Below, one piece after another: positions 3,023-34,302 of a stretch of DNA of 34,343 bases. The notes under the pieces are model-generated. The model worked only from the letters and a program-made list of their open reading frames with translations. It ran no database searches and was not told the DNA's origin. The stretch comes from a virus. The DNA is taken from positions 1 to 34,343 of IMG/VR virus record IMGVR_UViG_3300025536_000031. One strand, 5' to 3'. The stretch's first letter is position 1; every line of letters starts with the position of its first letter. The translations under genes and the position numbers were made by a program.

Positions 3023-3028
3023 TATTTA
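3023..3028 (-). promoter_or_regulatory. TANATA element (TAAATA), candidate late promoter
   Basis: Minus-strand CTAAATAAGG, with 7 bases to the tail-spike ATG. Its first three bases are the stop codon of the upstream gene. It is one of about eleven such elements ahead of structural genes. Confidence 0.5.
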
Positions 3029-3970
3029 GGCTCTGCTACTCCAGATTTCACAATCAACCACCTGATGGAATAGATGTTGGTCTGTCCCTGTTTTTCGCTC
3101 GGGTGGCGCATCAGAAACATTTCTAACAATTACGTTGTGGATATTTCCGTTAAACCAATGCCCTCGATATCCATTCAAGGCGTCTTTAATCTCTTTGGAC
3201 GCATCAACCGTTTCTGAATAAGTTTCAGCAAATACATCAATTGAAAACGTGGGATGTTCAATGCCGATCTTGGAAATCAAGTTGTATTCTCTGCCGCCGT
3301 TTTTCTTTGTATAAGAAACACACGGATATTGGCGTTTGGCTTGTGGGAAATTCTGTGGATAAGCTGGCAGGCTTGTTTCGCTCGAAAGGAAAGCCTTCAA
3401 GCCCTCTTCAATCGTGTAATCAATCGTGTTGATCGTGAGGGCGGGCCAATTGCTCGGTGTTGCATTTGCAGAGGTTGCAAATCTGGATATCAAAGATGAT
3501 CCCTGCCAACCACTTTTGAACACAAGATTTACAACACCACCACGATTAGCAATCGCATCTTCGCACAACTCGGCAATATCAAAAGTAACGTTTCCGCCTG
3601 CATAGGCCACACTGGTGGTGGGCGTGGTTGGGTTGCCTGCCGATCCCGTCCAGGTGGTTAGACCACTAGAGTTGTAAGTTGCCCCGCCTTCACTCCAGAA
3701 TTGACCACAACGATAAACAGTCAAGGTTTGGTTCTCGCTGGTAGCGCCGTCTGGCTTCAACGTCAACGTGGCTGTGTCGATTGTGTAATTGCCGATCAAC
3801 TCCGAGATATCAAAACGCATGATCGCAAGATATTCAACAAGGGTCGTTAATGGTGGCGACACTCGCCCCACGATGATATTGGCATTGCTGCCATAGTTGG
3901 TGGTCGGGGTGGCACTATCCAAATAGGTTTCTTGGTTAATGCCCTCGCCTGTTTGAAAAATGTATTCCAC
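3026..3970 (-). CDS. DNRLRE-like beta domain fused to DUF3168/tail-terminator-like domain
   Basis: 314 aa. Residues about 10-185 resemble DNRLRE/CBM96-type beta-sandwich domains: ETYLDSATPTTNYG, then FDIS...IDTATLTL and TVYRC..FWSEGGATYNS. The last 125 residues match the DUF3168 style of siphovirus tail terminators (LPAYPQ, then PCVSYTKKNGG and DVFAETYSETVDASKEIKDAL). I chose GTG at 3970 because it shares a base with the upstream stop (TAGTG) and follows GGAGA. The window has a second DUF3168-like protein in the usual place (24018-24794), so this one may have been recruited as an adaptor for a fibre or decoration. Confidence 0.7.
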   Translation of the reverse strand: MEYIFQTGEGINQETYLDSATPTTNYGSNANIIVGRVSPPLTTLVEYLAIMRFDISELIGNYTIDTATLTLKPDGATSENQTLTVYRCGQFWSEGGATYNSSGLTTWTGSAGNPTTPTTSVAYAGGNVTFDIAELCEDAIANRGGVVNLVFKSGWQGSSLISRFATSANATPSNWPALTINTIDYTIEEGLKAFLSSETSLPAYPQNFPQAKRQYPCVSYTKKNGGREYNLISKIGIEHPTFSIDVFAETYSETVDASKEIKDALNGYRGHWFNGNIHNVIVRNVSDAPPERKTGTDQHLFHQVVDCEIWSSRA

Positions 3971-4350
3971 TATCTCTCCAAGATCGTGTAATCCAGTTGA
4001 GCCGTGCCGCCAATAGCGTGTGCCCATATATTCACATTTTGAATCGGGCAAACGCAAACTTCACCCGGCTCTAAATGAAGGAAGACCCCAATTTCCATTG
4101 ACGATATTGTTTCGACGCCAACCTCGATTGTTATCACATCGCTTAGATTGTGGAAGACGCTCCAACCCGGCGTGCCAGATATCAAGGCATCACTAATTTC
4201 AAGTGGTTCCATCACCGTGGATAAATCTTGCACGCAAGAAAATTTGTGATTGCCAGCCATGTCGTATGAACTGGCTTTCTGCTTTTGGCTGAATATCAAA
4301 TTTGCATTCGCCACTTCCATTCCGGTTATCACTTTACTTTCATCGCTCAT
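3970..4350 (-). CDS. Hypothetical structural-operon protein
   Basis: 126 aa, not recognised. It is soluble and beta-rich, with pairs such as SDVITIEVGVETISSMEIGVFLH and EVCVCPIQNVNIWA near the C-terminus. It opens the distal-tail operon: a terminator at 4381-4402 ends the unit upstream, and TACATA lies 5 bases before the ATG. No Shine-Dalgarno sequence at useful spacing is present. A reading from 4548 would run back through the terminator and is rejected. The following gene overlaps by one base. Virion component by context only. Confidence 0.7.
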   Translation of the reverse strand: MSDESKVITGMEVANANLIFSQKQKASSYDMAGNHKFSCVQDLSTVMEPLEISDALISGTPGWSVFHNLSDVITIEVGVETISSMEIGVFLHLEPGEVCVCPIQNVNIWAHAIGGTAQLDYTILER

Positions 4351-4355
4351 GCCTT

Positions 4356-4361
4356 TATGTA
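4356..4361 (-). promoter_or_regulatory. TANATA element (TACATA), candidate late promoter
   Basis: Minus-strand CATACATAAAGGC directly followed by ATG, just after the terminator at 4381-4402. The 5-base gap would put the transcript start at or inside the start codon. Confidence 0.5.
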
Positions 4362-4380
4362 TGACTTGGGCGCATAAAAA

Positions 4381-4402
4381 AACGCTGGCGGTTGCCAGCG
4401 TT
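4381..4402 (-). terminator. Rho-independent terminator
   Basis: Perfect 9-bp stem AACGCTGGC / GCCAGCGTT with a 4-base loop and a run of T after it on the minus strand. It separates the early operon (5322 to 4430) from the distal tail operon. Flanking A and T runs would allow it to work both ways. Confidence 0.85.
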
Positions 4403-4429
4403 TTTCCACGGCGGGGAAAGGAAACCCGT

Positions 4430-4738: not shown

Positions 4739-4914
4739 CGGTTTTGCCCTCCAAGGTAGGATTGATCGAAAACATGAAGACATGACCATGACCGCAAAAC
4801 GTTGTCAAGTATCAAACCGCCCGGTTGCACGGCCATTTTCCTTAGCCTGTCCAAACGCTCTTTGGTTTCCTTGATTCGCTCGCCCAACTGGTCTAGTGCC
4901 TGTGTCGTGTTCAT
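4735..4914 (-). CDS. Short coiled-coil-like protein, hypothetical
   Basis: 59 aa. The start overlaps the stop of the alpha-CTD-like gene (ATGA), and its own stop overlaps the start of the secreted-protein gene (ATGA), which is strong evidence for a real, coupled gene. The N-terminal 27 residues form a charged amphipathic helix with Leu spacing (LDQLGERIKETKERLDRL). The C-terminus holds one Cys and several aromatics. No family recognised. Confidence 0.72.
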   Translation of the reverse strand: MNTTQALDQLGERIKETKERLDRLRKMAVQPGGLILDNVLRSWSCLHVFDQSYLGGQNR

Positions 4915-5183
4915 CCGATCAACTCCAGCGTGTGATAATTGTTCAGGCAGTGGAGCAACTTGTTGATAGCGCCCGTGCCTAAGTGGTCGATGGTAAACAA
5001 CGTTTCTTGGCTGGTGTGCATCAGTTGTTCCAAGGTCACGATTCCTGCCCGCTCTAAAAGGTTGATCGTGCGGACATTGAGCGCCCCGATTTCCTCTAGG
5101 TCTGCCAGCACGTCACCACGTCTAATCCCCTGCCTGATCGCTTCCAAGGCTGCCGGTTGAAGGTGGATTTTCATTTTCTTCAT
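4911..5183 (-). CDS. Stand-alone RNA polymerase alpha-subunit C-terminal-domain-like protein
   Basis: 90 aa. Residues 34-88 follow the RNA polymerase alpha CTD fold: ALNVRTINLLERAGIVTLEQLMHTS, then LFTIDHLGTGAINKLL. Against the E. coli alpha CTD, the DNA-contacting Arg265, Asn268 and Gly296 are kept (here R38, N41, G69), while Lys298 and Ser299 are replaced by Gly and Ala. There is no N-terminal assembly domain, so it cannot be a full alpha subunit. It probably binds DNA, polymerase or an activator. The start is uncertain: ATG 5183 or 5174 overlaps the RHH gene by about 60 bases, and GTG near 5111 would avoid this. It is coupled to the next gene by ATGA. Confidence 0.8.
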   Translation of the reverse strand: MKKMKIHLQPAALEAIRQGIRRGDVLADLEEIGALNVRTINLLERAGIVTLEQLMHTSQETLFTIDHLGTGAINKLLHCLNNYHTLELIG

Positions 5184-5322: not shown

Positions 5323-5347
5323 TTCAACACATCTTTCATTTTCACTC

Positions 5348-5366
5348 GTTTCAACACTTTTGAAAC
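5348..5366 (-). promoter_or_regulatory. Inverted repeat, candidate operator of the RHH operon
   Basis: Perfect 7-bp arms GTTTCAA / TTGAAAC with 5 bases between, at about +1 of the promoter at 5373-5400 and 26 bases upstream of the RHH start. RHH proteins commonly bind such repeats to repress their own genes. Confidence 0.55.
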
Positions 5367-5372
5367 CGCATG

Positions 5373-5400
5373 ACTATATGCCTTTTTTGTCCAGAGTAAA
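5373..5400 (-). promoter_or_regulatory. sigma70-like promoter of the RHH/alpha-CTD operon
   Basis: Minus strand TTTACT - 16 bases - TATAGT, followed within 8 bases by the 7-5-7 inverted repeat. Same architecture as the two TTTACA-N16 promoters at 12946-12973 and 14841-14868. Confidence 0.6.
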
Positions 5401-5508
5401 GTAAACCGGGGAAAAAGTTTCCAAGATTTCTGGCGATAGTGTGAAATCAACTAGGATCGTTTCTAACGCCATCCGAGCGGCAAGGGCCTAGAAGTGGCTT
5501 GGATCGTC

Positions 5509-5550
5509 CGATTCTTTTTTTAACAATCAGATTGTTATTTCACAGAATCG
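5509..5550. repeat. Nested palindromes in non-coding region
   Basis: Outer arms CGATTCT (5509-5515) and AGAATCG (5544-5550) enclose a perfect 15-base palindrome AACAATC-A-GATTGTT (5522-5536). It lies in the gene-free stretch 5401-5893. Candidate operator or origin-associated site. Confidence 0.45.
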
Positions 5551-5650
5551 GGGCGGGTTCGGCGGCAGGGTATACCTTTCTTTCCCTGGCAGGTTGTTCC
5601 TATGGGAAGGTTTGGCTTCTGGCTCGGTCTCTATGATGTGCTGGCGGGAA

Positions 5651-5718
5651 ATGCTTGGGCCAGTCTTGGGCGCAGCACGGCAAAGATGAAGACCCTGCCC
5701 GGTGATGCTTGGGCCAGT
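5651..5718. repeat. 14-bp direct repeat pair
   Basis: ATGCTTGGGCCAGT occurs at 5651-5664 and 5705-5718 in the same orientation. The second copy lies inside 8-bp inverted arms GAAGACCC (5688-5695) and GGGTCTTC (5732-5739). No open frame of quality spans it. Possible protein-binding sites of the origin region. Confidence 0.4.
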
Positions 5719-5781
5719 GTGGGGGTGCCGTGGGTCTTCGCTAGCCTGCCAGCCCTCTTATCAACGTGATGGGTCGATCCC

Positions 5782-5812
5782 GCCCGCCGAACCCCGCAAG
5801 GGGTGAGCGGGC
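5782..5812. repeat. GC-rich hairpin with GNRA-type loop
   Basis: Outer stem GCCCGC / GCGGGC and inner stem ACCCC / GGGGT closed by GCAA. It lies between the 14-bp repeats and the AT-rich stretch beside the iterons. Confidence 0.45.
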
Positions 5813-5817
5813 TTGAT

Positions 5818-5976
5818 GGATTTTAGTTTTGAAAAGAATACGAGCGAAGCGAGTATTCTTTTCATATGAATTGATACTTATCTTAATATCTGATCCCAAT
5901 CCGCCCCTTGACTGTCCCAATCCGCCCCTTGAAAAATCCCAATCCGCCCCTTGAACTGTCCCAATCCGCCCCTTGA
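5818..5976. other. Candidate replication origin: four iterons beside AT-rich DNA
   Basis: Four identical 18-bp direct repeats TCCCAATCCGCCCCTTGA begin at 5894, 5915, 5937 and 5959, so the spacing is 21, 22 and 22 bases (two helical turns, same face). They abut an AT-rich stretch at 5818-5893 and end 3 bases from the rep stop codon. Same-face iterons beside AT-rich DNA and a rep gene are the hallmark of iteron-controlled theta replicons. The array lies 3' of rep rather than upstream of it. Confidence 0.75.
5831..5863. repeat. 11-bp inverted repeat in AT-rich stretch
   Basis: Perfect arms GAAAAGAATAC / GTATTCTTTTC around an 11-base centre. It lies in the AT-rich segment (about 5818-5893) next to the iterons. 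It could be a terminator for rep transcripts coming from the right or part of a DNA-unwinding element. Confidence 0.5.
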
Positions 5977-5978
5977 CG

Positions 5979-7043
5979 CTATTCCTGGCTTGGTGCGTAT
6001 GACCACAGAAAAACGCTCCCACTATTCTTCAAATGACACTCCAGCACCTTGATTGCCATCTCGGTTTCTTGCTTCAAAAGCCCACCAGAGTTGGGGCCAC
6101 GGAACAGCCCTTGTTGTCGATTCAGCCCCGTCACACCTTCAACGTGGCCGAACAATTCGTGCCAGTCACGAACGAAGATTTCCAGAAAATCAAACCGCCC
6201 GCCTAGTTTCTGGATAGTCCAAGACCAGTATTCAAACACTGCCTTTTCAGTAAATCCACACTGCAACATCAGCTCACCCATATCCTTGACCTTGGCAGCA
6301 AATTGTTCATGGCCCTCGAACCACTCGAATTTCAAGGCAGAGGGGTTTTCAAGCGGGATACTTAAAACCCTTTGTTTCTCTCTTTTGGGTTTCTTTTGAT
6401 CGTAGATGGAATAATCTGCCGTGGCGGCTGTGACCAAGCCAAACCCCAACAGGTATTTTTTCTGCCGTAGGGTTTCAATAGCTGGCCCCACGGTATTTTT
6501 GCTGATGCCTAGAATCCTGGCATACCAGACTTGTTTCTGGCGGGGTCTTCTATGGATCAACCAGAACAAGGCGTTGTGTCGGCTGGCGAGCGTGCCCGAG
6601 CGGGGAATAGAAACCTTGAAATAGGCGAACCGATCAAACCATTCGGCATGCCGTTTGATTCCTCTTTCTGAGAACCAATCGTAGGAATCGCCCTCTAAGG
6701 CGATAACTCGCCCCTGTTGGCGTTCTACCGATACGGGGCCAGACTTGCCATCCAATTCATACGCCACGGTTTTCTTGACCGTCCAGGCGCACAGCCCGTG
6801 ATATTCCAATTCTTCAATTGCGGCTCGGGCACAGTCTTTATCCAACCCTGTGCCATTGGTGATTTGTTTGATGGTAACGCTGGCGGGATGTGTTTTGCCT
6901 TTGGCTTGACCGATCCGATATACAAGAAATGAATAAACAAATCTGGCATTGAATGATAACGGGCAGCCTTTCTTTGCTTGAAGAAAAAACAGATTTTTGG
7001 CATTTGTTATTTTCGCCAGCGGCACTATATTACTTTCAGACAT
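5979..7043 (-). CDS. Replication initiator-like protein with two winged helices
   Basis: 354 aa. Residues about 33-100 form a first winged-helix region (VTIKQITNGTGLDKDCARAAIEEL), and residues about 150-215 a second (ASRHNALFWLIHRR, then ARILGISKNTVGPAIETLRQKKYL). Two winged helices in tandem is the plan of iteron-binding Rep proteins, though I see no family signature strong enough to name one. The start ATG follows AAAGGATCAA. Iterons lie directly downstream, and a long structured leader with a candidate antisense RNA lies upstream. An alternative is a phage replisome organiser or repressor. Conserved aromatic residues in 220-300 suggest a further domain. Confidence 0.72.
   Translation of the reverse strand: MSESNIVPLAKITNAKNLFFLQAKKGCPLSFNARFVYSFLVYRIGQAKGKTHPASVTIKQITNGTGLDKDCARAAIEELEYHGLCAWTVKKTVAYELDGKSGPVSVERQQGRVIALEGDSYDWFSERGIKRHAEWFDRFAYFKVSIPRSGTLASRHNALFWLIHRRPRQKQVWYARILGISKNTVGPAIETLRQKKYLLGFGLVTAATADYSIYDQKKPKREKQRVLSIPLENPSALKFEWFEGHEQFAAKVKDMGELMLQCGFTEKAVFEYWSWTIQKLGGRFDFLEIFVRDWHELFGHVEGVTGLNRQQGLFRGPNSGGLLKQETEMAIKVLECHLKNSGSVFLWSYAPSQE
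7004..7031 (+). promoter_or_regulatory. Candidate promoter of an antisense RNA to rep
   Basis: Plus strand TTGTTA - 16 bases - TATATT, pointing away from rep. The start of transcription would fall near 7038, opposite the rep start codon (7041-7043). Confidence 0.45.
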
Positions 7044-7152: not shown

Positions 7153-7204
7153 TTTTGCCGTTTTCAGTTTGGTAATTTTCTCAGTTGGGTCACTACTATA
7201 AAGC

Positions 7205-7262: not shown

Positions 7263-7312
7263 AATGGTCAACTCTCTCCTAAAATAGAGTTGGGTTAAAT
7301 AGGTCTATCTTG

Positions 7313-7350: not shown

Positions 7351-7353
7351 TTT

Positions 7354-8031: not shown

Positions 8032-8100
8032 AAAAACTGCTTTCCAACAATATAGTAGAACAATGAATAAAAAAAATAGAGAAATTTGAAATGGCGTGCA

Positions 8101-8106
8101 TAGATA
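8101..8106 (+). promoter_or_regulatory. TANATA element (TAGATA) ahead of the plus-strand operon
   Basis: Plus-strand CATAGATAAGG followed by GGAGG and an ATG 9 bases after the element. It resembles the minus-strand elements but could be chance in this AT-rich intergenic stretch. Confidence 0.35.
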
Positions 8107-8115
8107 AGGCGGAGG

Positions 8116-8277: not shown

Positions 8278-8293
8278 AAGTGAATTACCAGAA

Positions 8294-12098: not shown

Positions 12099-12373
12099 TA
12101 TTCGGCGCTCCAATCTTCGTTAATTTCATCTTCATCATCGGGCACAACGGTTTTGATTTGGGTAATGTTCACTTCGGGTTCGTCTTCATCGGAAATCCAA
12201 CGGTCAAGAGATGTGCCGTGTGATTCCAAAAATTCTTCAACCTGTTCATCGCTCCAATTGGCAGGCACCCTTGCCGTGATCGTGCGGTAGCTTTTCGCCA
12301 TGCCCTCTTGGTAAATCTCAACCACCTTAGTCTTTGTAGTGTTCTTTGATTCGTCGTTCTTTACGATCTTCAT
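12098..12373 (-). CDS. Acidic hypothetical protein
   Basis: 91 aa. RTITARVPANWSDEQVEEFLESHG reads as a small alpha/beta motif; the C-terminus is very acidic (ISDEDEPEVNITQI, PDDEDEINEDWS). AAAAGGGCTGAAC precedes the ATG, within a 57-bp repeat shared with the gene at 12554-12895, so both have nearly the same leader and first codons (MKIV). Confidence 0.66.
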   Translation of the reverse strand: MKIVKNDESKNTTKTKVVEIYQEGMAKSYRTITARVPANWSDEQVEEFLESHGTSLDRWISDEDEPEVNITQIKTVVPDDEDEINEDWSAE

Positions 12374-12417
12374 TGTTCAGCCCTTTTCAAAAAGTGATGT
12401 TCAGGAAACCAACTGCC
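12361..12417 (-). repeat. Leader repeat, copy A
   Basis: 57 bp covering the first codons of the gene ending at 12098, its ribosome site, and the last codons of the gene at 12387-12554. Nearly identical to 12883-12938 (one indel and few changes). The duplication carries AAAGGGCTGAAC just before ATGAAGATCGT. Confidence 0.75.
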
Positions 12418-12554
12418 ACACCAATAGATTTTTTTGTTATCCGAAATGGCAGTAACTTTGCCTTCCTTTGAGTTATTTCGCACGGATCGACACAAGCGGG
12501 GTTGTCTTTGCGATGAATGATCTTGACCCAATAAACCGTGTCGCCCTCTTTCAT
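12387..12554 (-). CDS. Small hypothetical protein in the leader-repeat operon
   Basis: 55 aa (MKEGDTVYWVKIIHRKD...GFLNITF). The ATG overlaps the upstream stop (TAATG), and its last six codons lie within the 57-bp leader repeat. The start MKEGDTVYWV resembles small SH3-like barrel proteins, which is a weak guess. It has two Cys (CVDPC). Confidence 0.65.
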   Translation of the reverse strand: MKEGDTVYWVKIIHRKDNPACVDPCEITQRKAKLLPFRITKKSIGVAVGFLNITF

Positions 12555-12895
12555 TATTTCACCATACTGCGCAAGGCGATTTCAAAACTTTCAATGTGCC
12601 GAAGTTTGCCGAAGCCATCCAATAACGCACACTCTTTGACGAGTTTCAAAATCCTCTTTGCAATCGTGGGCGTCACCGCCACGATGAATTGCCGTTGCTC
12701 CCAATCACCATCCACCGCAAAGCAATGTTTTAACTCGCCCGGTTGGGTTTCCGTTTCCAAGTAGTGTGCCAAGGCGTGCGTTGGAAATTCGCACACATTG
12801 GAAAGCAGCATGCCGTCTTTATCCACGACGGCATAGCCAACGCCTTTCGTGCTGACTGGAAACTTGGAATGCCTGTTCTCCGTTACGATCTTCAT
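12554..12895 (-). CDS. Hypothetical protein, first gene of the 12.9-11.4 kb operon
   Basis: 113 aa. GYAVVDKDGMLLSNVCEFPTHALAHYLETE and EQRQFIVAVTPTIAKRILKLV suggest a mixed alpha/beta fold. The leader repeat copy B provides AAAGGGCTGAAC before the ATG. A TTTACA-N16-TATAAT promoter lies 50 bases upstream. No family recognised. Confidence 0.68.
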   Translation of the reverse strand: MKIVTENRHSKFPVSTKGVGYAVVDKDGMLLSNVCEFPTHALAHYLETETQPGELKHCFAVDGDWEQRQFIVAVTPTIAKRILKLVKECALLDGFGKLRHIESFEIALRSMVK

Positions 12896-12938
12896 AGTTC
12901 AGCCCTTTCAAAAAGTGATGTTCAGGAAACCAACTGCC
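12883..12938 (-). repeat. Leader repeat, copy B
   Basis: 56 bp matching 12361-12417. Here the part that encodes GFLNITF in copy A is not preceded by an open gene, so it looks like a remnant left by duplication of a gene junction. Confidence 0.75.
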
Positions 12939-12945: not shown

Positions 12946-12973
12946 ATTATACAACGCAAACAGCGTTTGTAAA
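12946..12973 (-). promoter_or_regulatory. sigma70-like promoter with operator-like spacer
   Basis: Minus strand TTTACA - 16 - TATAAT. The spacer holds AACGC-TGTTT-GCGTT, a 5-5-5 inverted repeat. The sequence CAAGTTTACAA plus GTTTGCGT in the spacer is shared with the recombinase promoter at 14841-14868. Confidence 0.75.
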
Positions 12974-13031
12974 CTTGGGCCAAAAGTAGTGAGGCATAGT
13001 GCCAAAATGAATTGGGGCCAATGAACCACAT

Positions 13032-14840: not shown

Positions 14841-14868
14841 GATATACCACGCAAACGGGCGTTGTAAA
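14841..14868 (-). promoter_or_regulatory. sigma70-like promoter of the recombinase
   Basis: Minus strand TTTACA - 16 - TATATC. The spacer carries ACGC-CCGTTT-GCGT. It matches the promoter at 12946-12973 from CCAAGTTTACA through GTTTGCGT, which suggests one regulator for both units. Confidence 0.72.
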
Positions 14869-14934
14869 CTTGGCGTTGCAAGTGGCCGTTTCACAAAGAC
14901 TTGTGAAGGCGGCAAAATCAACGTTTCTGCCCAT

Positions 14935-19675: not shown

Positions 19676-20530
19676 TTAGAATCCGAATGTGCCAAAGTTG
19701 ACGGCATCGTAAATTTCCTTTTCGATGTAGTGTGCTGCATCGCCCTCGGGCAACACGTCGCCATTCTCTTTCAACAAACGCTGTGTGGTCACAGGAATGT
19801 TTTCACCTTGTTCATTTCGCTCGGTAATCAAATAACTCAATCCGTCAGATTGATGTTTGTATTTCGTGCCTTGATTCAAAATCTTTTTAGTGAACGTGCG
19901 GCGGTCATAAGTAAACTCATAAGAGACTCGCACAAAATCCGTGCCATCACTATGTTTGAGAAACTGCGGGGATATGTTCGTTAGCATCACGGTTTTAGAT
20001 GCACCACCCAAAAACGATGCATTGTTGATCTTGCCAAGGTATTCAAGAGCCAACGAACCATCCCAAGACAATTCATTGCGGGTGATGGTAAAAACCGCAT
20101 TGAAAACACGCTTGGTGATTGAACCTGGAAGGAACGGTTCATTGGCCGTGGTAAGAATCTTGACGTTGTTGATATCCCTATCAACAGGTTCTTCATACTC
20201 AACAGCCGTCCAAGTGTATTGAACATCAGCCGTGAGCGGATTGGAGTTGTTTTCATCAGGTGCGATTGAGGAATAACTAACCGTTACATCAAAGGCATTC
20301 TCGGCAACTCGATCCGCCCGCTTGCTTTCAACGTATGCATAGAGATCGGATTCCGTGTCCGTTAGATAGTATTCGCCAAGTAGAGGGATGCCGCTGGCAT
20401 CTCTGGCGAGCAACGGGCCGTCTGCCGTGCTGGACATAACCACACGGAAAACCCGTGTATATTTTCGTTCGGTGGCTGTGCTTTCAGCCGATCCCTTTTC
20501 GGGTGTTTCACTAACATCAATGACGCTCAT
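19676..20530 (-). CDS. Distal tail hypothetical protein
   Basis: 284 aa. The N-terminus has TERKYTRVFRVVMSSTADGP and a mainly beta character throughout (FDVTVSYSS, YTWTAVEYEEPVD, VRVSYEFTYDRRT). It is the gene after the tape measure, a position often held by distal tail or baseplate proteins. The ATG has no Shine-Dalgarno sequence; TAAATA lies 4 bases before it. No family recognised. Confidence 0.68.
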   Translation of the reverse strand: MSVIDVSETPEKGSAESTATERKYTRVFRVVMSSTADGPLLARDASGIPLLGEYYLTDTESDLYAYVESKRADRVAENAFDVTVSYSSIAPDENNSNPLTADVQYTWTAVEYEEPVDRDINNVKILTTANEPFLPGSITKRVFNAVFTITRNELSWDGSLALEYLGKINNASFLGGASKTVMLTNISPQFLKHSDGTDFVRVSYEFTYDRRTFTKKILNQGTKYKHQSDGLSYLITERNEQGENIPVTTQRLLKENGDVLPEGDAAHYIEKEIYDAVNFGTFGF

Positions 20531-20534: not shown

Positions 20535-20540
20535 TATTTA
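20535..20540 (-). promoter_or_regulatory. TANATA element (TAAATA), candidate late promoter
   Basis: Minus-strand GCCTAAATAGGTT then ATG, inside a 26-base gap after the tape measure gene. The 4-base gap to the start codon implies a leaderless message if the element is a -10 box. Confidence 0.5.
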
Positions 20541-20556
20541 GGCAGAGCGTTGATAA

Positions 20557-21999
20557 TTAGTTGATCTTGAAACCCGTTATCCGTGTGAAGGTGCTAGCCA
20601 ACTTTTCTAGGTTGCGGTCTGAATCCTTGGCAACCTTCAATTGTTCATCATTTGTCTTTTGCAACTTTTCCTGCCAGCCACCACCCGAGCGGTTTGTTAA
20701 TTCGGCCAACATTGCATCAGCACTGCCGAATTCGGCGGCTGCCCCCAACTTGGTTTCAAAATCACCCTGTAAATCACGTTGGTCTTTCTTCTCGAATGGA
20801 TTGCTCTTGAACATTCCAAGATCATTGGCGAGTGAGCCAGCGCCCTTGACGGCATCCCATATGCCTTTGCCCAATGCAGTGGCCGTGTTGCCTTGTCCCC
20901 CAAGCATCCCCTTGGCATTGTCAAAGATGCCTTTGATGCCCTCGAAAGGCTTGAACATATTTTCTTGTGCTTTTTTCTCTTCGGTTGCTTTGGCCTTGGC
21001 TGCATCCCGTTCTTTCTTGGCCGTGCCATCCCAATGATTCTTGGCTTTCTCCATTGATTCATCAGCAGACTTATCGAGCGAATCCACCACGGCTTTCAAT
21101 GTTGAGGTAATATCCACATCACCACCAAGAGCGTTGATTACACTTTCTGCGCCGCTCGCAAGATCGTAGACAAGATGGACAACCTGCCCCAAGCCTTTCA
21201 CAAGCAAGGCTTGGACTAAGAACCAACCTGCCTTGATCGTGTCAAAGGTGGCTTCAATCTTGCTGCCGAACCCTTCACCGCTTTTTGCCCAACTGATGAT
21301 ATCCTCGGTCATACTGGCGAGAATGGGAGCAATGTTGATGGCAAGTTGATTCTTCATCGCTTCCCACAACAGTTTGGCTTTGTCCAAGCTATCGTTGAAA
21401 CCGCCCATCGCTTCGGCATCCACTTGGGAAACAGTGAAGCCAAGTTTTTCTGCTTCGGCGGCAGTGTCGGCAATGAACCCTTTACCGTTTTGGAAAATCT
21501 GCATTAAGTCGCCAGCACCTTTGCCGAAGATGGCAACGGCTGCGGCTGCCTGATCGGCAGGGTTTTTGATCTTGTTCAACGCACCAGCAATTTCGGTGAA
21601 CTGTGCATCAGGTGTGAGTTTCTTCAACTTGGCAAGGTCCAAACCGATCTTGGAAAAAGCGTTGTCTTTATCACCGTTTGCTTTGCCAAGATTGAGTTGC
21701 ATTTTTTGCAGAGCGGCTTGCATACTCTCGGCGCTTGAACCCGCTAGTTGTGCTGTGTAATTCAGCTTGCCCAATGCTTCGGTGGTGATGGAAAGTTTGG
21801 TGGCAGTGTCGGCCAACTGGTCGATGGCATTCACTTGATCCAAGATGCCTTTGAGGGCAGCACCAGCCCCGATGGCAGCACCTAAGCCCAACAAGGCACC
21901 TTTGGCAGTGCCTAACCCGCCCACGAACGATTTGAGCGTGCCTGATGCTTTGTTTAGACCTGCATTGAATGCGCCTGAATTAACTTTCAGACCTAGCAC
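20557..21999 (-). CDS. Tail tape measure protein
   Basis: 480 aa from GTG 21999. Typical start GLKVNSGAFNAGLNKASGTLKSF with Gly/Ala helix GALLGLGAAIGAGAALKG, then AIDQLADTATKLSITTEALGKL and long helices to the end. The extended N-terminus (A)TIGNIVLGLKV fits tape measure starts MATIG..., which would need an ATT start at 22020 with GAGG six bases upstream. GTG 21999 also has AGGG ahead, so both are open. At 1.5 Å per residue the tail would be about 70 nm. Confidence 0.88.
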   Translation of the reverse strand: MLGLKVNSGAFNAGLNKASGTLKSFVGGLGTAKGALLGLGAAIGAGAALKGILDQVNAIDQLADTATKLSITTEALGKLNYTAQLAGSSAESMQAALQKMQLNLGKANGDKDNAFSKIGLDLAKLKKLTPDAQFTEIAGALNKIKNPADQAAAAVAIFGKGAGDLMQIFQNGKGFIADTAAEAEKLGFTVSQVDAEAMGGFNDSLDKAKLLWEAMKNQLAINIAPILASMTEDIISWAKSGEGFGSKIEATFDTIKAGWFLVQALLVKGLGQVVHLVYDLASGAESVINALGGDVDITSTLKAVVDSLDKSADESMEKAKNHWDGTAKKERDAAKAKATEEKKAQENMFKPFEGIKGIFDNAKGMLGGQGNTATALGKGIWDAVKGAGSLANDLGMFKSNPFEKKDQRDLQGDFETKLGAAAEFGSADAMLAELTNRSGGGWQEKLQKTNDEQLKVAKDSDRNLEKLASTFTRITGFKIN

Positions 22000-22019
22000 T
22001 ATATTCCCTATCGTAGCAA

Positions 22020-22046
22020 TAACACACCTCGTTTGTTGATGTGTTA
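22020..22046 (-). promoter_or_regulatory. 5' hairpin of the tape measure message
   Basis: Minus strand TAACACATC / GGTGTGTTA, 9 bp with one G-U pair, just after TACATA. The right arm contains part of GAGGTG, the ribosome site for the possible ATT start. Confidence 0.5.
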
Positions 22047-22050
22047 TGTA
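22045..22050 (-). promoter_or_regulatory. TANATA element (TACATA)
   Basis: Minus-strand TTATACATAACAC directly before the 5' hairpin. Same TACATAAC + hairpin arrangement as upstream of the tail tube gene (23994-23999). Confidence 0.5.
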
Positions 22051-22095
22051 TAAATCTGCCTTTCAAAAAAGTGTGTATGTGGCTAAGTTATAGGG

Positions 22096-22701
22096 ATGAT
22101 CCAAATTAAAGTTGAAATGTTGACGTTGGGCGAAATTAAAGACACCAGATTGAAAAGCAATTCTCTGGTGGTCTGTAAATGCGAGTGTGGAAAAGAAAAG
22201 TTGATTAGGTGGCACGATATCCAACGTGGGCATTGCACAAGTTGCGGTTGTAAGCGACATAAGCCATTCAATAAAACCCACGGCCAAAGTGGCACGAAAA
22301 CCTATACAACCTGGAAAGGTATGCGGCAGCGTTGCAACAATCCCAACTGTGAAGCATTTCCAGACTATGGCGGCAGGGGAATTAAGGTTTGCCCCCGTTG
22401 GGATTCTTTTGAGGCATTCTTAAAAGATGTGGGCGAGATACCAAAAGGGATGGAAATTGACCGAATTAACAATGATGGCAATTACGAACCTGGAAATGTG
22501 CGGATTGTCAAACGCAAAGTGAATATCAACAACACGTCCAGAAACCGCTATTTGGAAATCGACGGGCAGACCAAGACGCTTGCCGAGTGGTGCGAACAAT
22601 TCGGAATCAAATATATGATTGCCTTTGATCGGCTCGCCAGTGGATGGGATGCAAAGAAAGCGTTGACTGAGCCGGTAGCCCACAGGCGCAAACGCAAATA
22701 A
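22096..22701 (+). CDS. HNH/AP2-type homing endonuclease, opposite strand to tail genes
   Basis: 201 aa. N-terminal Cys set (CKCECGKEKL, CTSCGC); HNH core YTTWKGMRQRCNN, YGGRGIKVCPRW, DRINNDGNYEPGNVRIV; C-terminal NUMOD-like EIDGQTKTLAEWCEQFGI with RLASGWDAKKALT. It is transcribed against the tail operon, between the chaperone and tape measure genes. That placement, with its own shared terminator, fits insertion of a mobile endonuclease. Confidence 0.88.
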   Translation: MIQIKVEMLTLGEIKDTRLKSNSLVVCKCECGKEKLIRWHDIQRGHCTSCGCKRHKPFNKTHGQSGTKTYTTWKGMRQRCNNPNCEAFPDYGGRGIKVCPRWDSFEAFLKDVGEIPKGMEIDRINNDGNYEPGNVRIVKRKVNINNTSRNRYLEIDGQTKTLAEWCEQFGIKYMIAFDRLASGWDAKKALTEPVAHRRKRK

Positions 22702-23964: not shown

Positions 23965-23969
23965 GAAAA

Positions 23970-23995
23970 TAACTCCAAGAAAGTGTTTGGAGTTA
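23970..23995 (-). promoter_or_regulatory. 5' hairpin of the tail tube message
   Basis: Minus strand TAACTCCAA / TTGGAGTTA, 9 perfect pairs with 8-base loop, directly after TACATA and enclosing the ribosome site GGAG. A stem at the very 5' end would protect the message and gate translation. Confidence 0.55.
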
Positions 23996-23999
23996 TGTA
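23994..23999 (-). promoter_or_regulatory. TANATA element (TACATA) of tail tube gene
   Basis: Minus-strand GAATACATAACTCC, with the 5' hairpin starting in its last base pair. No terminator sits between the DUF3168 gene end (24018) and this element. Confidence 0.5.
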
Positions 24000-24017
24000 T
24001 TCAGGCTGCCGCATTTT

Positions 24018-24798: not shown

Positions 24799-24804
24799 TA
24801 TTTA
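24799..24804 (-). promoter_or_regulatory. TANATA element (TAAATA), candidate late promoter
   Basis: Minus-strand TTGCTAAATAGCGT then ATG, downstream of the terminator at 24824-24854. Spacing of 4 bases to the start codon. Confidence 0.55.
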
Positions 24805-24823
24805 GCAATGCAGACAAACAAAA

Positions 24824-24883: not shown

Positions 24884-25300
24884 CTATTTAGTCGAGTCTT
24901 TTACAATTTTGTCGATGCCTTGTCTGATGGCATCCTCGGTTTGCTTCGCCACTTGTTCTTTCTTGTTGTCAAAAGCCTGTTGCATATAGCCCTGTGGTGG
25001 CTGTTTGCTGGTGCCGAATTCCACCATTGCGGCATAAAAAGTTTCGCCCTTGAAATTACCTTCCCCAATTTCAGCCGTGGCGCTTGCGATGCCTTTTCTG
25101 AATTTGGTTTTGATCTTCACACTGGCAGCCAATGCGCCCGTGTCTTGTGGTGCTGTCTTTTCAATTTCCTCTTTGAGAACCTTGGCACCATCACGGCAAG
25201 CCTTGCGAACCACCTTTTTTGCTAGTTTTGGCTCTAGCTCTTTCAGTGCTTTTTCAATTTGCTTGCCGCCTGTGACCTTTACCGAAAAAAATGCTGGCAA
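24884..25300 (-). CDS. HK97 gp10-like head-tail joining protein
   Basis: 138 aa. KALKELEPKLAKKVVRKACRDGAKVLKEEIEKTAPQDTGALAASVKIK is the HK97 gp10 pattern, with FYAAMVEFGTSKQPPQGYMQQAFD further on. TTG 25300, one base after the upstream stop and preceded by GGAAC, gives MPAFFSVKVTGG and removes the overlap. A GTG at 25318 is an alternative. Next to the adaptor and terminator genes as usual. Confidence 0.86.
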   Translation of the reverse strand: MPAFFSVKVTGGKQIEKALKELEPKLAKKVVRKACRDGAKVLKEEIEKTAPQDTGALAASVKIKTKFRKGIASATAEIGEGNFKGETFYAAMVEFGTSKQPPQGYMQQAFDNKKEQVAKQTEDAIRQGIDKIVKDSTK

Positions 25301-26547: not shown

Positions 26548-26553
26548 TATCTA
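26548..26553 (-). promoter_or_regulatory. TANATA element (TAGATA)
   Basis: Minus-strand ACTAGATATCCGT then ATG. Includes the stop codon TAG of the upstream gene and lies 5 bases before the connector start. Confidence 0.5.
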
Positions 26554-26745
26554 GTTGTTGGCAGGCTGATTTGTTTGCCACTCGTTGTTGTAATACTCTA
26601 GGGCAACCAACTGATCGCTTGTTGTAAACACGGGCTGCCCGTCTTTGTAGAATTCAAACTCTGTGTGGTCGTCGCCAAAATGGCATCGGTAGAACGTGCC
26701 ATCGTTGCTCTTAAACGCCTCAACTCTTTTGTCTGCATCACTCAT
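26551..26745 (-). CDS. Small hypothetical protein
   Basis: 64 aa, soluble and acidic (GTFYRCHFGDDHTEFEFYKDGQPVFTTSD). The ATG overlaps the stop of the propeller gene (TAATG) and the 3' end of the 72-aa gene. The phrase TFYRCHFGDDHTEF resembles short beta proteins but no family is recognised. Position between head genes suggests a virion part or assembly factor. Confidence 0.68.
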   Translation of the reverse strand: MSDADKRVEAFKSNDGTFYRCHFGDDHTEFEFYKDGQPVFTTSDQLVALEYYNNEWQTNQPANN

Positions 26746-28034: not shown

Positions 28035-28415
28035 TTACTCTGGCTTGTAATATTGGCCCGTATGGCTGTCGAGCCATGATCCACTGTCGGCATCATAAGC
28101 GGGCAAGGTGGAATAGAACGGCACAGACACATCAATAGCTTCGTTGCCTTGCCAAACTGGATTGTTGGGAACCCCGTTTGTGTAAAAGTTATCACTCAAG
28201 TAAAACTCATCGCTATTGTGTATGCGAATGAGATTGGCAAACTGCCTTGGCGAGAGTGTGCCGGTAAGCAACTCGGGCGCACATCGTGTGCATAGTGTGT
28301 AAACGCCGTCTATCCTAACGATGACGTGTTTACATTCCTGCGGCATTGAATGCTGACAGGCTTCACAAAGAAATGTCATGGGCTGTTGGTGTCCTCTTTT
28401 TTTGACAAAAAACAT
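28035..28415 (-). CDS. Small Cys-rich protein after the capsid gene
   Basis: 126 aa from ATG 28415, or 114 aa from ATG 28379. FLCEACQHSMPQECKHVIVRIDGVYTLCTRCAPELLTG gives a C-x2-C ... C ... C-x2-C zinc finger; the C-terminal half has SDNFYTNGVPNNPVWQGNEAIDVSVPFY. The TANATA element is 27 bases upstream of 28415. A hairpin AAAGC-AGC-GCTTT follows it. Virion or assembly role by context. Confidence 0.68.
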   Translation of the reverse strand: MFFVKKRGHQQPMTFLCEACQHSMPQECKHVIVRIDGVYTLCTRCAPELLTGTLSPRQFANLIRIHNSDEFYLSDNFYTNGVPNNPVWQGNEAIDVSVPFYSTLPAYDADSGSWLDSHTGQYYKPE

Positions 28416-28442: not shown

Positions 28443-28448
28443 TATTTA
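28443..28448 (-). promoter_or_regulatory. TANATA element (TAAATA) after the capsid terminator
   Basis: Minus-strand GACTAAATAAAGC, 16 bases beyond the capsid terminator stem, followed by a short AAAGC-AGC-GCTTT hairpin. Confidence 0.5.
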
Positions 28449-28464
28449 GTCACAGCAATAAAAA

Positions 28465-28492
28465 AACCCAACTGGCTTTCACCAGTTGGGTT
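28465..28492 (-). terminator. Terminator after major capsid gene
   Basis: 12-bp AACCCAACTGGC/T-type stem (AACCCAACTGG and CCAGTTGGGTT) around TTTCA, followed by a T run on the minus strand. Confidence 0.88.
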
Positions 28493-28514
28493 TGAAAGGT
28501 CAGCAAACAATGGA

Positions 28515-29823: not shown

Positions 29824-29829
29824 TATCTA
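29824..29829 (-). promoter_or_regulatory. TANATA element (TAGATA) of the capsid gene
   Basis: Minus-strand TGCCTAGATACTTTC, about 106 bases before the capsid ATG and just after the protease terminator. This message would have a long leader, unlike the other TANATA units. Confidence 0.48.
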
Positions 29830-29867
29830 GGCAGGTGCGTTTGATTTTTATTTGAGCGCATAGAAAA

Positions 29868-29899: not shown

Positions 29900-29927
29900 A
29901 AGGGAGAAAACCTATGGCAAGGCTTTC

Positions 29928-30611: not shown

Positions 30612-32244
30612 TGTTCTCCAATAATGCTTGTGTAATTTGCTTAGCTCTCGATTCCATCCACTCTTGCAAGATTCCTTCCAATTTCTCCACAGAACCCACG
30701 GCGTTTTGCAACGCTCTCTTGCTCTCTTCGCAATGCGTGATTGCAAACCTATCTAGCACAGCCGAAGCGTTTTCTTCGCCGACAAGCACTGTTAGGGATG
30801 GCTTCATCACTTCGGCAACGTGGCTTTGGTGATCGTTGTAAAATTCATCAGCCCACGAATTAAATTCGTCGCCCGTGTGTTTCTTCATCGCCCGCTTAAT
30901 CGCATTGATTTCCTTGGTCAAAATTCTGCGGATACCATCAGCCAACACAGGGGCAAACGCCTTTTCTTCAAAGGTGCTTTTGGGTGTGTTCGGATTTAGG
31001 ATTTCCTCTGGTGGTTGTTCATCGACAGGCGGCTCGGGCTGATCGTCGGTCCCCAGTTGATCGGACGCCTGTGCCATATTCATTGGCATAATAGGTTGGT
31101 CGAATTCTGGCCCCCACTTCGGCAAGTTCTCTCGGGTTCTTTGTTCATTGACTGTTTCCCACGGCATTCCACCGTTGGCAATCTTGTTCGCTTCGTAACG
31201 TGTCTTAACGTCTGCCCGCAACAGACTATCCACGTTGAAGCGATGGAAATAACCACTAGCCTTTTCCTCTTCGGTGAATAACTTGCGGTCAATCTCTGCC
31301 TCTACCTTGTCCACCCACGGGCGCAGTGTGTATTTCTCAAAATCCAAACTCTCTGCTTCGGGTGACTTGCTGGACGTTTCCAGACCGACCATATACGGAC
31401 GCACACGATAGATTTGGCATATACTCCGTGCCTGATATTGTCTGGCCTCTAAAAATTGGCTGTCGTGGTTGGAGTAACCCTTTGGTTTCCATTCGATGCC
31501 GTGCATATAGAAAGGCGTTTTGCCTGCCTCTTCAAGCCCACGGCTCTTGTCCATTTGCTCTTTGAATTGTTCCAAGGCTTCATCGGTGCCGAAACTGCCC
31601 TGCATTGTGAGATAACCATCGGAATGATTACCGTTGCCGAAATATCTCGCACCATACATTTCAGCCGCCAGAGCCAATTCAAAGGTTCGCTTGTTTTTCA
31701 GCACGGGCGAAACACCCATGAAACCATCGGTGGTCATTCCAGCGATGTGGAACATTTCGGATGGGGCAATGGGTTTTTGTTTGTAAATGTAGAATGGATG
31801 CCCACCATTTAATTCAAACTTGACTTGCTTGGGATTCAATACGGTTAGGGTTGGGCGGCTGCCGTTCCTACCAATCAAAGAGAAATGGTTGCCGTGTGTG
31901 CAAAGGTTGGTGGCGACAACCTGCCAGAATGCAACCGATGTATATAACTCTTCATGTGGGTTGCGAACTAGTTTTGTTGTGGAATGATCCTCAACTAGTT
32001 CCCTGCCCTCGGTGGTTTTCTTGTAAGTCTTTCCCGATTGGGCCACGCTGGCGAGTATCCCACCGATGAATTCAATACAGGAAAGGCCAGTTGAGGTTTC
32101 TAAAACAGACTCTTCGGTGATGTTGATTCCCGTGTCTGTGTTGCCAACCTTGTATGTATTCCAACCAATTTCGTGAAGTGGCAATTGTTGTTCGTATGCT
32201 CTACGCTCTGGCTTTTTCCAGCCCATCCAAGTGAATAATCCCAT
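30595..32244 (-). CDS. Portal protein, HK97 type
   Basis: 549 aa from ATG 32244 (MGLFTWMGWKKPERR). Residues about 55-320 carry the phage portal pattern: LSCIEFIGGILASVAQ, LVRNPHEELYTSVAFWQVV, MFHIAGMTTDGFMGVSPVLKN, QARSICQIYRVRPYMVGL. A C-terminal Pro/Glu-rich linker and helical part follow (about 410-549). Start chosen because TAGATA lies 8 bases upstream; the longer frame to 32280 would overlap TerL. It ends 16 bases inside the protease gene, coupled. Confidence 0.93.
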   Translation of the reverse strand: MGLFTWMGWKKPERRAYEQQLPLHEIGWNTYKVGNTDTGINITEESVLETSTGLSCIEFIGGILASVAQSGKTYKKTTEGRELVEDHSTTKLVRNPHEELYTSVAFWQVVATNLCTHGNHFSLIGRNGSRPTLTVLNPKQVKFELNGGHPFYIYKQKPIAPSEMFHIAGMTTDGFMGVSPVLKNKRTFELALAAEMYGARYFGNGNHSDGYLTMQGSFGTDEALEQFKEQMDKSRGLEEAGKTPFYMHGIEWKPKGYSNHDSQFLEARQYQARSICQIYRVRPYMVGLETSSKSPEAESLDFEKYTLRPWVDKVEAEIDRKLFTEEEKASGYFHRFNVDSLLRADVKTRYEANKIANGGMPWETVNEQRTRENLPKWGPEFDQPIMPMNMAQASDQLGTDDQPEPPVDEQPPEEILNPNTPKSTFEEKAFAPVLADGIRRILTKEINAIKRAMKKHTGDEFNSWADEFYNDHQSHVAEVMKPSLTVLVGEENASAVLDRFAITHCEESKRALQNAVGSVEKLEGILQEWMESRAKQITQALLENNGTRD

Positions 32245-32252
32245 AGTATGGA

Positions 32253-32258
32253 TATCTA
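32253..32258 (-). promoter_or_regulatory. TANATA element (TAGATA) of the portal gene
   Basis: Minus-strand CCCTAGATATCC, 8 bases before the portal ATG, 13 bases after the TerL stop. No Shine-Dalgarno sequence in the gap. Confidence 0.5.
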
Positions 32259-32270
32259 GGGGAATGGGCA

Positions 32271-33833
32271 TCAAATCCAAATCATTGCCCGGCCATTGAT
32301 TATGTTTTTATCTGGCTTGGGCAGAGTGATCCCGATTGCCATACAAAGTGCTACGATCCCATCCACCTTGTCTTTGGATTTGCGTTTGGTCGGTTTGATG
32401 TTGCCTGCCGCATCCGTTTCAACCACACAGTTGCCAGCCATCCAATCCAAGATGGGATTATCAAACTTCAATTGATGGGTCAAAATCAGCCGCTCTAGTT
32501 CCTTGCTGGCAGGTGACATTGATAGGAAACCCTGCCCATACGCTTCCAGGTTGAAGCCATCGCCCGTGAGTTGGGTTGAAATGTGGACGGAATTAAACAC
32601 ACGATCCACGGCAATCCGGTCAATGTGGTATTCCTTGCGAAGCCTGTTGATCGTCGCTCGCACCACATCGTAATCCGTGGCGTTGCCCTCGGTGAGCGTC
32701 AACAATTTTCGCTTCGCCCACACTTGATAATGTGGCTTGTCTTTGGCTGCCTCTTCGGGCAGGAAAAAGAACGGCAACACCGTATGGCTTTCTGGCGAAT
32801 ACATCACAAAGGATGTGAAGTCTGAAACGCTCGCAAGGTCCAGACCACAAATCCATTTCTCTTTGGTCAAGTTGCTGTGGTCTGGCTTTTCGCATTGCTC
32901 CCAATGTTTCATTGGCAACCAACCATCAACGTATTTGTCCAACCATTGATTCAAATATTTCTGGCGAAACTTTCGCTCTTCGCTCGGCAACTCTTTCGCC
33001 AGTTGGAATTCAGACCGGATGAAATCGAGATTGCAGAAATCCCCAAGGGCAGGCATTGCCTTATACCAATTGGCTTCATCCCGCCATGATTCCTCTGGCT
33101 CTTTCGGGCATTCGTGGACACAGGCAAAGAAAGATGGATCAAAGGTAGGATCGTCCAAGACTTTCTTGGCATACGTGTATTGTTCAAAGCACTTGCTGTT
33201 GGGGTCTGTGCCCGCCGTGCTGATGGTGATAAGCAGAGGTTCTTTCGTTCCGCCAAAACTGCTGGTGAGTGAATCCCACAGATTGTTATTTTTGTGGGCG
33301 AACAATTCATCAATGATGGCAACCGTGGGGCCAGAGCCTTCATCCCGTGCGCCTTCACTCGAAAGGCTGATGATTTCATTGCCCTTTTCCTCCCACGCAA
33401 TGCGGTATTTGTAGGGCTGTAAAAGGCATATCTTTTTGAGGGTGGGTGATTGCTTTATGAAATCTGCAATCATCTTCCAAATGTGTAAGGCTTGTTCTCG
33501 TTTGGCTGCCCCGATGTAAATGGTCTGGCCTTGCTTGCCCGAGCCGACAAGGAAATAGAGGGCAAGGGCGGCAATCAGTTGTGACTTGCCTTGCTTGCGT
33601 CCGAAACTGATGTAAGCCTTTTTGCATTGGCGTTTGCCTGTGGCAGGATCGACGTTCAGCAAGCCACGGATAATGTCACACTGCCACGGCCTGAGGTTGA
33701 ACGGCTCGCCACGGTAATTGTGAGTGTGCTTGAGGCGATTTATAAAACGAATTGCACGCTCTGCCTCTTCGTGGTTTGTCTTGTCGGCTGCTATTCCGCT
33801 AACCAACTGATTTTTAGATTCGATGTAACTCAT
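32271..33833 (-). CDS. terL: Terminase large subunit
   Basis: 520 aa. Walker A-like GRKQGKS at 78-84 and Walker B VAIIDE at 171-176 (Asp175, Glu176). Nuclease domain with GLDLASVSDFTSF, IAVDRVFNSV and SKDKVDGIVALCMA. This is the HK97-like TerL type, a P-loop ATPase that pumps DNA through the portal. Start ATG 33833 has no ribosome site; the upstream sequence CATATCTATTTGT is a poor TANATA match. A terminator separates it from TerS. Confidence 0.95.
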   Translation of the reverse strand: MSYIESKNQLVSGIAADKTNHEEAERAIRFINRLKHTHNYRGEPFNLRPWQCDIIRGLLNVDPATGKRQCKKAYISFGRKQGKSQLIAALALYFLVGSGKQGQTIYIGAAKREQALHIWKMIADFIKQSPTLKKICLLQPYKYRIAWEEKGNEIISLSSEGARDEGSGPTVAIIDELFAHKNNNLWDSLTSSFGGTKEPLLITISTAGTDPNSKCFEQYTYAKKVLDDPTFDPSFFACVHECPKEPEESWRDEANWYKAMPALGDFCNLDFIRSEFQLAKELPSEERKFRQKYLNQWLDKYVDGWLPMKHWEQCEKPDHSNLTKEKWICGLDLASVSDFTSFVMYSPESHTVLPFFFLPEEAAKDKPHYQVWAKRKLLTLTEGNATDYDVVRATINRLRKEYHIDRIAVDRVFNSVHISTQLTGDGFNLEAYGQGFLSMSPASKELERLILTHQLKFDNPILDWMAGNCVVETDAAGNIKPTKRKSKDKVDGIVALCMAIGITLPKPDKNIINGRAMIWI

Positions 33834-33860
33834 ACAAATAGATATGAGTGTGCATCAACA

Positions 33861-33888
33861 AAAACACCCGCATTTCTGCGGGTGTTTT
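33861..33888 (-). terminator. Terminator between TerS and TerL
   Basis: AAAACACCCGC / GCGGGTGTTTT stem (11 bp) with 6-base loop and T runs on both strands. Placing a terminator between the two terminase genes is unusual. Confidence 0.85.
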
Positions 33889-33920
33889 GTTTGTAGTGAA
33901 AGAGCTTCGTTCAACTCTAT

Positions 33921-34292
33921 CTATTCAAGAAACTCTGAAAAATCATCGTTAGGATCAACGGGCGGCACGTCATCTAGTTTCATTCGTCGGCGGCTCTGTG
34001 GTGTTAAACCAAGCGTGGCGGATATCTTTGCCAGTTGGTTATCTGCCGCCTGTTTGATTGTGACCCACGGGTTAGAATATGCGCCACCCGTCTTGCCAGA
34101 AATCAAAACAGGTGATTCCTTTTTCAGTGCTGCCCGTGCTTGCTCTTGGTCTGTCCAAGCCAAAACGTATAGTTCAACAATGTCAGCATCGGCAGTGTTG
34201 AACGTGCCAACCGCCTTCAATCGTTCTATCAACTGTGTCCATTTTTTCTTTTGGGCAGCGTTGAAATACTTAGGTGCTGTTGTTTGTCTCAT
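33921..34292 (-). CDS. terS: Terminase small subunit, P27-like
   Basis: 123 aa. FNTADADIVELYVLAWTDQEQARAALKKESPVLISGKTGGAYSNPWVTIKQAADNQLAKISATLGLTPQSRRRM is the P27/Terminase_4 pattern. Acidic tail (DVPPVDPNDDFSEFLE). The ATG has no ribosome site; TAGATA lies 4 bases upstream. If the window is circular, this gene follows the HNH and 84-aa genes. Confidence 0.9.
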   Translation of the reverse strand: MRQTTAPKYFNAAQKKKWTQLIERLKAVGTFNTADADIVELYVLAWTDQEQARAALKKESPVLISGKTGGAYSNPWVTIKQAADNQLAKISATLGLTPQSRRRMKLDDVPPVDPNDDFSEFLE

Positions 34293-34296
34293 GCTT

Positions 34297-34302
34297 TATC
34301 TA
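34297..34302 (-). promoter_or_regulatory. TANATA element (TAGATA) of TerS
   Basis: Minus-strand CTATAGATAAAGC then ATG, near the right edge of the window. Spacing of 4 bases to the start codon. Confidence 0.5.

Follow-up and report, generated by a model that had tools for sequence, protein, structure and literature searches.

How does a phage start the transcription and translation of structural genes whose start codons lack a Shine-Dalgarno (SD) sequence? The question is raised by the virus record IMGVR_UViG_3300025536_000031 of IMG/VR, analysed here over its full 34,343 bases (the window), which carries on its minus strand a siphovirus-type structural cluster in the order TerS, TerL, portal, protease, capsid, head-tail adaptor, tail terminator, tail tube and tape measure. 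Eleven copies of a short box, (C/A)TA(A/C/G)ATA, stand ahead of structural genes or units on this strand. A first-pass annotation had taken the box for a phage-specific late promoter giving leaderless messages. Our analysis leads us to regard as probable a bipartite class of phage late promoter that serves the head and tail genes and gives messages that are either leaderless or freed from a hairpin sequestering their SD.

The box, its upstream tract and its placement

All eleven boxes are present, and it is their placement rather than their number that stands out, as the first-pass annotation had argued. The minus strand has 26 copies of TANATA and the plus strand 13, together 39, a number only slightly raised against shuffled sequences (mean 23.8, sd 5.8). 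Among the 603 minus-strand ATGs, however, exactly seven have a TANATA ending 4-8 nt upstream (34292, 32244, 26542, 24794, 20530, 4350 and 3015), the number that had been claimed, and all seven open long reading frames, of 123-549 aa. Of some 3,300 hexamer patterns compared over the 16 nt leading up to gene starts, TANATA was the most enriched (8/49 starts versus 4/1040 other ATGs, p=4.1e-9), and SD-like patterns came next. The list of 49 starts was intended to be blind to the box, although some starts were checked by hand (4350, for example), and the portal was entered as ATG 32271, with its box uncounted. With starts called fully automatically the outcome agrees, at lower power (6/60 versus 3/1023, p=1.7e-6). 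The box is also concentrated in intergenic DNA: the gaps between late genes hold eight minus-strand boxes where dinucleotide shuffles predict 1.22, and none of 3000 shuffles reaches eight. This count takes in boxes lying 27-106 nt upstream of their starts. Five boxes had been described as following terminators; clear terminator hairpins lie upstream of four (4356, 24799, 28443 and 29824), and the fifth did not hold up.

The box is accompanied by a second component that the first-pass annotation, which saw no shared -35, had missed. When the eleven boxes are aligned, the three positions from -18 to -16 upstream of them hold A or T in 32 of 33 letters, a value reached by none of 5000 jittered alignments. 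All three positions are A/T at 10/11 listed sites versus 7/28 other TANATA sites (p=2.6e-4), and the base just before the box is C or A at 11/11 versus 12/28. At site 3023 the tract ends 1 nt farther upstream than elsewhere, and at three sites it is the T-run of a clear terminator hairpin; at 28443 the run belongs to the stem at 28464-28493. As for a -35 word itself, none is shared upstream of the eleven boxes beyond chance, and the A/T tract is all that they have in common there.

A position weight matrix (PWM) of the whole element, evaluated by leaving one site out at a time, recovers each site at ranks 12-75 of 68,634 positions. Its further hits are 8101-8106 on the plus strand, 24885-24890 on the minus strand and a weak TATCTA before TerL. 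Two other candidates were left uncounted: a TAGATA at 30750-30755, directly ahead of a TTG at 30746 in the protease gene, whose homologues start at ATG 30611, and a box at 33918-33923 with a moderate PWM score of 9.4, because it precedes a hairpin in the TerL leader.

Translation starts at and behind the boxes

Most genes in the window have either a box adjoining the start codon or an SD. The predicted duplex energy with the 16S tail averages -0.03 kcal/mol for the seven starts next to a box, worse than for random ATGs (-2.1). For genes without a box it averages -4.5 on the minus strand and -5.5 on the plus strand (p=9e-8 versus random ATGs), and the pairing of the seven differs from that of the remaining genes with p=9e-5. 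The host ribosome evidently uses SDs. The lack of an SD that the first-pass annotation had reported for six of the seven genes thus extends to all seven. The portal could begin at ATG 32244 or at a second in-frame ATG, which lies upstream at 32271 and overlaps the TerL stop.

We propose that the promoter consists of a short A/T tract, 15 nt, and then TA(A/C/G)ATA with C or A before it, and that RNA polymerase, redirected by a putative factor, would start about 5-7 nt past the box. At the seven genes the 5' end would then fall at the AUG or within about 3 nt of it, giving a leaderless message that needs no SD. The T4 late box lies at -13 to -6 relative to the transcription start (PMC1524935), a geometry that fits a leaderless start here.

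Two of the remaining boxes, those before the tail-tube and tape measure genes, overlap hairpins that had gone unnoticed in the first-pass annotation. Each stem pairs over 10 bp with one G-U pair, the left arm begins within the box, and the right arm contains the SD of the gene at working distance (Table 1). The tail-tube stretch that folds is UACAUAACUCCAAACACUUUCUUGGAGUUAUUUUCAUG. At the tape measure gene the right arm takes in the greater part of the SD (GAGG) along with the initial bases of an AUU at 22020, which is most likely the start of the gene and which the GAGG SD fits. From this rare start codon (21999-22023 region, minus strand) the protein would begin MATIGNIV; the reading (M)ATIGNIVLGLK aligns with phrog_9483 from profile position 2, not 17. 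An HNH endonuclease gene (22096-22701, plus strand; phrog_374) lies directly upstream of the tape measure box, on the opposite strand within the tail cluster, and resembles a mobile insertion.

In the gene e, soc, 49 and I-TevI mRNAs of T4, a hairpin inhibits use of the ribosome site (PMC3014915). The anatomy of the gene e type, a hairpin over the SD or start whose 5' arm coincides with a promoter in the DNA, is found here with a putative promoter, so that only late-initiated RNA would lack that arm; the genes concerned are different, tail tube and tape measure, and the hairpins are predictions. We infer that they act at the RNA level. If transcription began about 6 nt past the box, the message would lose most of the left arm and its SD would be exposed, whereas read-through RNA would keep the hairpin, which hides the SD and, in the case of the tape measure, the AUU start as well, so that only RNA started at the box would be translated well. 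The two ATAAC...GTTAT dyads could instead be DNA operators for a dimeric repressor that overlap the promoter. They are alike in sequence and spacing, and they are the only two in the window, confined to these boxes, as such an explanation would have it. We nevertheless consider operators unlikely, given the 10-bp pairing that includes a G-U, the presence of both SDs in the right arms at working distance, and the lack of any such dyad at the other nine boxes.

Table 1. Features of the window with coordinates. Promoters are putative, and distances run from the end of the box to the start codon.
Feature	Coordinates	Strand	Details
TerS promoter	34297..34320	-	TAGATA 34297-34302; A/T tract 34318-34320; 4 nt before ATG 34292 (predicted leaderless)
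Candidate weaker TerL variant	33839..33862	-	TATCTA 33839-33844; T tract after hairpin; 5 nt before ATG 33833; PWM score 7.2
Portal promoter	32253..32276	-	TAGATA 32253-32258; A/T tract 32274-32276; 8 nt before ATG 32244
Major capsid promoter	29824..29847	-	TAGATA 29824-29829; A/T tract; behind terminator hairpin; 106 nt before ATG 29717
Gene 28035-28415 promoter	28443..28466	-	TAAATA 28443-28448; 27 nt before ATG 28415
Head-tail adaptor promoter	26548..26571	-	TAGATA 26548-26553; 5 nt before ATG 26542 (predicted leaderless)
Tail-terminator-like gene promoter	24799..24822	-	TAAATA 24799-24804, after terminator; 4 nt before ATG 24794 (predicted leaderless)
Major tail protein promoter	23994..24017	-	TACATA 23994-23999; A/T tract 24015-24017; 29 nt before ATG 23964
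Tail-tube (major tail protein) hairpin	23969..23996	-	10-bp stem AUAACUCCAA/UUGGAGUUAU; right arm contains SD (GGAG); z -4.6
Tape measure promoter	22045..22068	-	TACATA 22045-22050; A/T tract 22066-22068
Tape measure hairpin	22019..22047	-	10-bp stem AUAACACAUC/GGUGUGUUAU; left arm begins within box
Gene 19676-20530 promoter	20535..20558	-	TAAATA 20535-20540; 4 nt before ATG 20530 (predicted leaderless); top PWM score
Gene 3970-4350 promoter	4356..4379	-	TACATA 4356-4361, after terminator; 5 nt before ATG 4350 (predicted leaderless)
Gene 1756-3015 (Mtd_N domain) promoter	3023..3046	-	TAAATA 3023-3028; 7 nt before ATG 3015
Candidate plus-strand copy	8083..8106	+	TAGATA 8101-8106; A/T tract; 9 nt before ATG 8116; PWM score 16.9
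Sigma-70-like site	12946..12973	-	TTTACA-N16-TATAAT; ahead of early-type gene 12554-12895
Stand-alone RNA polymerase alpha-CTD-like protein	4911..5183	-	90 aa; PF03118, 29.1 bits versus curated cut-off 23.8

Weighing the proposed promoter class

The statistics, the SD complementarity and the placement after terminators support a promoter-like element with leaderless messages well. The two other parts of the first-pass description are on less firm ground. That the element is phage-specific is plausible from the features that set it apart from sigma-70 sites, described below, but stays unproved, as no gene for a late sigma factor or polymerase was found. Late timing we infer from gene content alone. 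'Late' may even be too narrow because of the plus-strand copy at 8101.

Five results weigh against the promoter class that we favour. Without four T-run sites (the three terminator T-runs and 22050) the A/T tract is weaker, and 54/5000 jittered alignments reach it. The hairpin region of the tape measure gene, taken as a whole, shows no excess of folding over shuffles (z -0.8). The copy at 8101-8106 scores like the listed sites and precedes the first gene of a non-structural plus-strand operon, which would mean use outside the structural genes. The proteins scanned, in a record that may be incomplete, included no recognisable sigma factor of the gp55-like, ECF or late kind, no recognisable phage RNA polymerase and no known activator; the first-pass annotation had likewise seen no T4-like sigma gene. 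Finally, the expectation that related phages would share the box was disappointed: two screening methods applied to about 250 loci of distant relatives found its signature in none, except in L002, a fragment of this same phage, and in a re-fetched piece of the window.

The box could be the ordinary sigma-70/sigma-A -10 element of the host (TANNNT) at leaderless genes, as in Deinococcus-Thermus and Actinobacteria, with nothing specific to the phage. Its placement equals that of the Deinococcus -10 motif (PMC12340547) and of TA-led genes (PMC3160421), and leaderless first genes followed by SD-led distal genes are the usual picture. We think this improbable, however. Position 6 of the box is A in 11/11 sites, where a sigma-70 -10 or TANNNT needs T, and TANNNT is not enriched before gene starts (7/49 versus 93/1040, p=0.155), unlike TANATA (p=4e-9). 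Moreover, a near-consensus TTTACA-N16-TATAAT ahead of an early-type gene suggests that the host reads normal sigma-70 promoters too. With a box that departs from the sigma-70 rule at its sixth position and this site beside it, the phage seems to have two coexisting promoter classes. The sigma-70-like site and the integrase start lie near a 31-nt repeat (12948-12978 and 14843-14873, 84% identical) with a palindromic core, a possible operator. A less remote, though still unlikely, option is that the phage makes use of a promoter that belongs to its host, either one read by an alternative sigma factor or one from a lineage whose primary -10 is itself unusual. The failure to recognise a phage sigma gene would suit it, as would the plus-strand copy at 8101 if the factor were a general one, but no such boxes precede the genes of the phage-plasmid pPLIM01 or of other relatives.

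Two further explanations do without a promoter. Seven boxes lie at an SD-like distance from genes without an SD, and might thus be a translation signal, that is, a ribosome site of a non-SD type. This is very improbable in our view: four more boxes stand 27-106 nt upstream, in gaps where very few would be expected by chance; the A/T tract, a position behind terminators and the occurrence of boxes in the left arms of SD-hiding hairpins all suit transcription; and the remaining genes use a normal SD. That the boxes are chance matches picked by eye is hardly credible. The TANATA total is mildly raised, and some boxes overlap the stop codon of the upstream gene (TAA at 3023-3028, TAG at 26548-26553), yet the box-blind enrichment holds after correction for all patterns tried, and 10/11 sites have the A/T tract.

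Compared with known systems, the nearest box in sequence is the Aeh1 late box, CTAAATA (PMC1524935), whose core is nearly equal to the present one; the T4 box is TATAAATA, read by gp55 with gp33 and gp45. As in those phages, there is no classical -35, and the box recurs in many copies, each heading a structural gene or unit and often preceded by a terminator. The likeness to T4 noted in the first-pass annotation therefore holds for the box. It does not extend to the arrangement: the late boxes there lie 14-57 nt before SD-led starts (T4 14-28, Aeh1 18-57, as measured here), whereas here seven genes have the box 4-8 nt before an SD-less start. Further differences are the third base of the box, here A, C or G, the A/T tract 16-18 nt upstream, absent at T4 and Aeh1 boxes, and the phage itself, a siphovirus type with a serine integrase in which no gp55, gp33 or gp45 clamp is recognised (for the scanned proteins, neither PHROG nor Pfam gave such a hit). 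The element thus resembles a T4-type late promoter system plus leaderless translation and is not classifiable as a gp55 system.

Leaderless messages from later genes are also known from the Thermus phage phiYS40, whose middle and late transcripts are leaderless (PMC3594737), and short promoters without a -35 from P23-45, where gp39 and the host sigma-A enzyme serve extended -10 middle and late promoters (PMC7403470). The window differs from P23-45 in having no recognised gp39-like gene and in a box that departs from TANNNT. Among host genes, the leaderless ones of Deinococcus-Thermus and Actinobacteria likewise have a box directly before an SD-less start codon, of the form TANNNT (PMC3160421, PMC12340547) and, in Deinococcus, 6-7 nt before the reading frame (PMC12340547); the consensus here is TANATA, and it was found in the phage only. 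No box continues as TAnnTTTG, as in the Bacteroidetes -33/-7 promoter (TTTG, TAnnTTTG), and the other genes use SDs, which that type does without.

If the proposed promoter class is real, this is a siphophage of temperate type in which no late sigma gene is recognisable and most structural genes or units have a promoter of their own, and its structural genes begin translation by another route, leaderless or through loss of a hairpin arm, than its other genes. One genome would then combine a box like that of T4 and Aeh1, leaderless messages like those of phiYS40 and a hairpin switch like that of gene e. The proposal makes precise predictions, namely a start 5-7 nt from each box, a required A/T tract and an AUU start for the tape measure gene, and it names one candidate factor.

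A candidate factor, relatives and neighbouring features

That factor is the alpha-CTD-like protein encoded at 4911-5183. Its best PDB matches are RpoA chains, and the matching stretch is also picked out by rpoA models of NCBIfam. Because alpha-CTDs bind A/T tracts, we put the protein forward, as a guess, as the reader of the upstream element. In E. coli the full DNA-binding determinant comprises R265, N268, C269, G296, K298 and S299; in an alignment to Bacillus chains, given in E. coli numbering, R265, N268 and G296 are kept, and K298 and S299 are not. A structure model from the single sequence was poor (mean pLDDT 46) and unusable. Among 50,697 phage records there were marginal matches only. 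One could go further and imagine a late promoter class not descended from gp55 systems, in which the protein reads the A/T tract and recruits or re-aims the host RNA polymerase, replacing sigma region 4 at the -35 position. We hold this to be a long shot; if it were true, the whole structural programme would be shifted from SD-led to leaderless or de-sequestered translation.

Searches with TerL, the major capsid protein, the tape measure protein, the portal and other proteins returned distant relatives only, plus L002, a 9.8-kb fragment that is 100% identical and the sole close relative found. Besides L002, the best identity of TerL to anything is about 40%. The nearest other relatives (L127, L203 and L207) have normal SDs at most genes. 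The Planctopirus plasmid pPLIM01 (NC_014149, locus L171) has the gene order of the window (TerL, portal, protease, capsid, tape measure), with identities of 31% for TerL, 28% for the portal and 22% for the gene after the tape measure; a head closure gene is also common to both. These shared genes hint at a host of Planctomycetota type.

Outside the structural cluster the window carries the serine integrase, the plus-strand HNH endonuclease and the small plus-strand operon. No Rfam family was found in the window. A 773-aa protein of the structural region (16798-19119, minus strand), which begins MFSFCCCNNCIIC, has no match in any library used. The leader and first residues of two adjacent minus-strand genes are common to both, as a duplicated gene-start region (12361-12417 and 12883-12938, 522 bp apart, ~91-97% identical). 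Three tandem copies of a 22-bp repeat at 5904-5976, possible iterons, span the end of gene 5979-7043 and the 5358-5978 gap.

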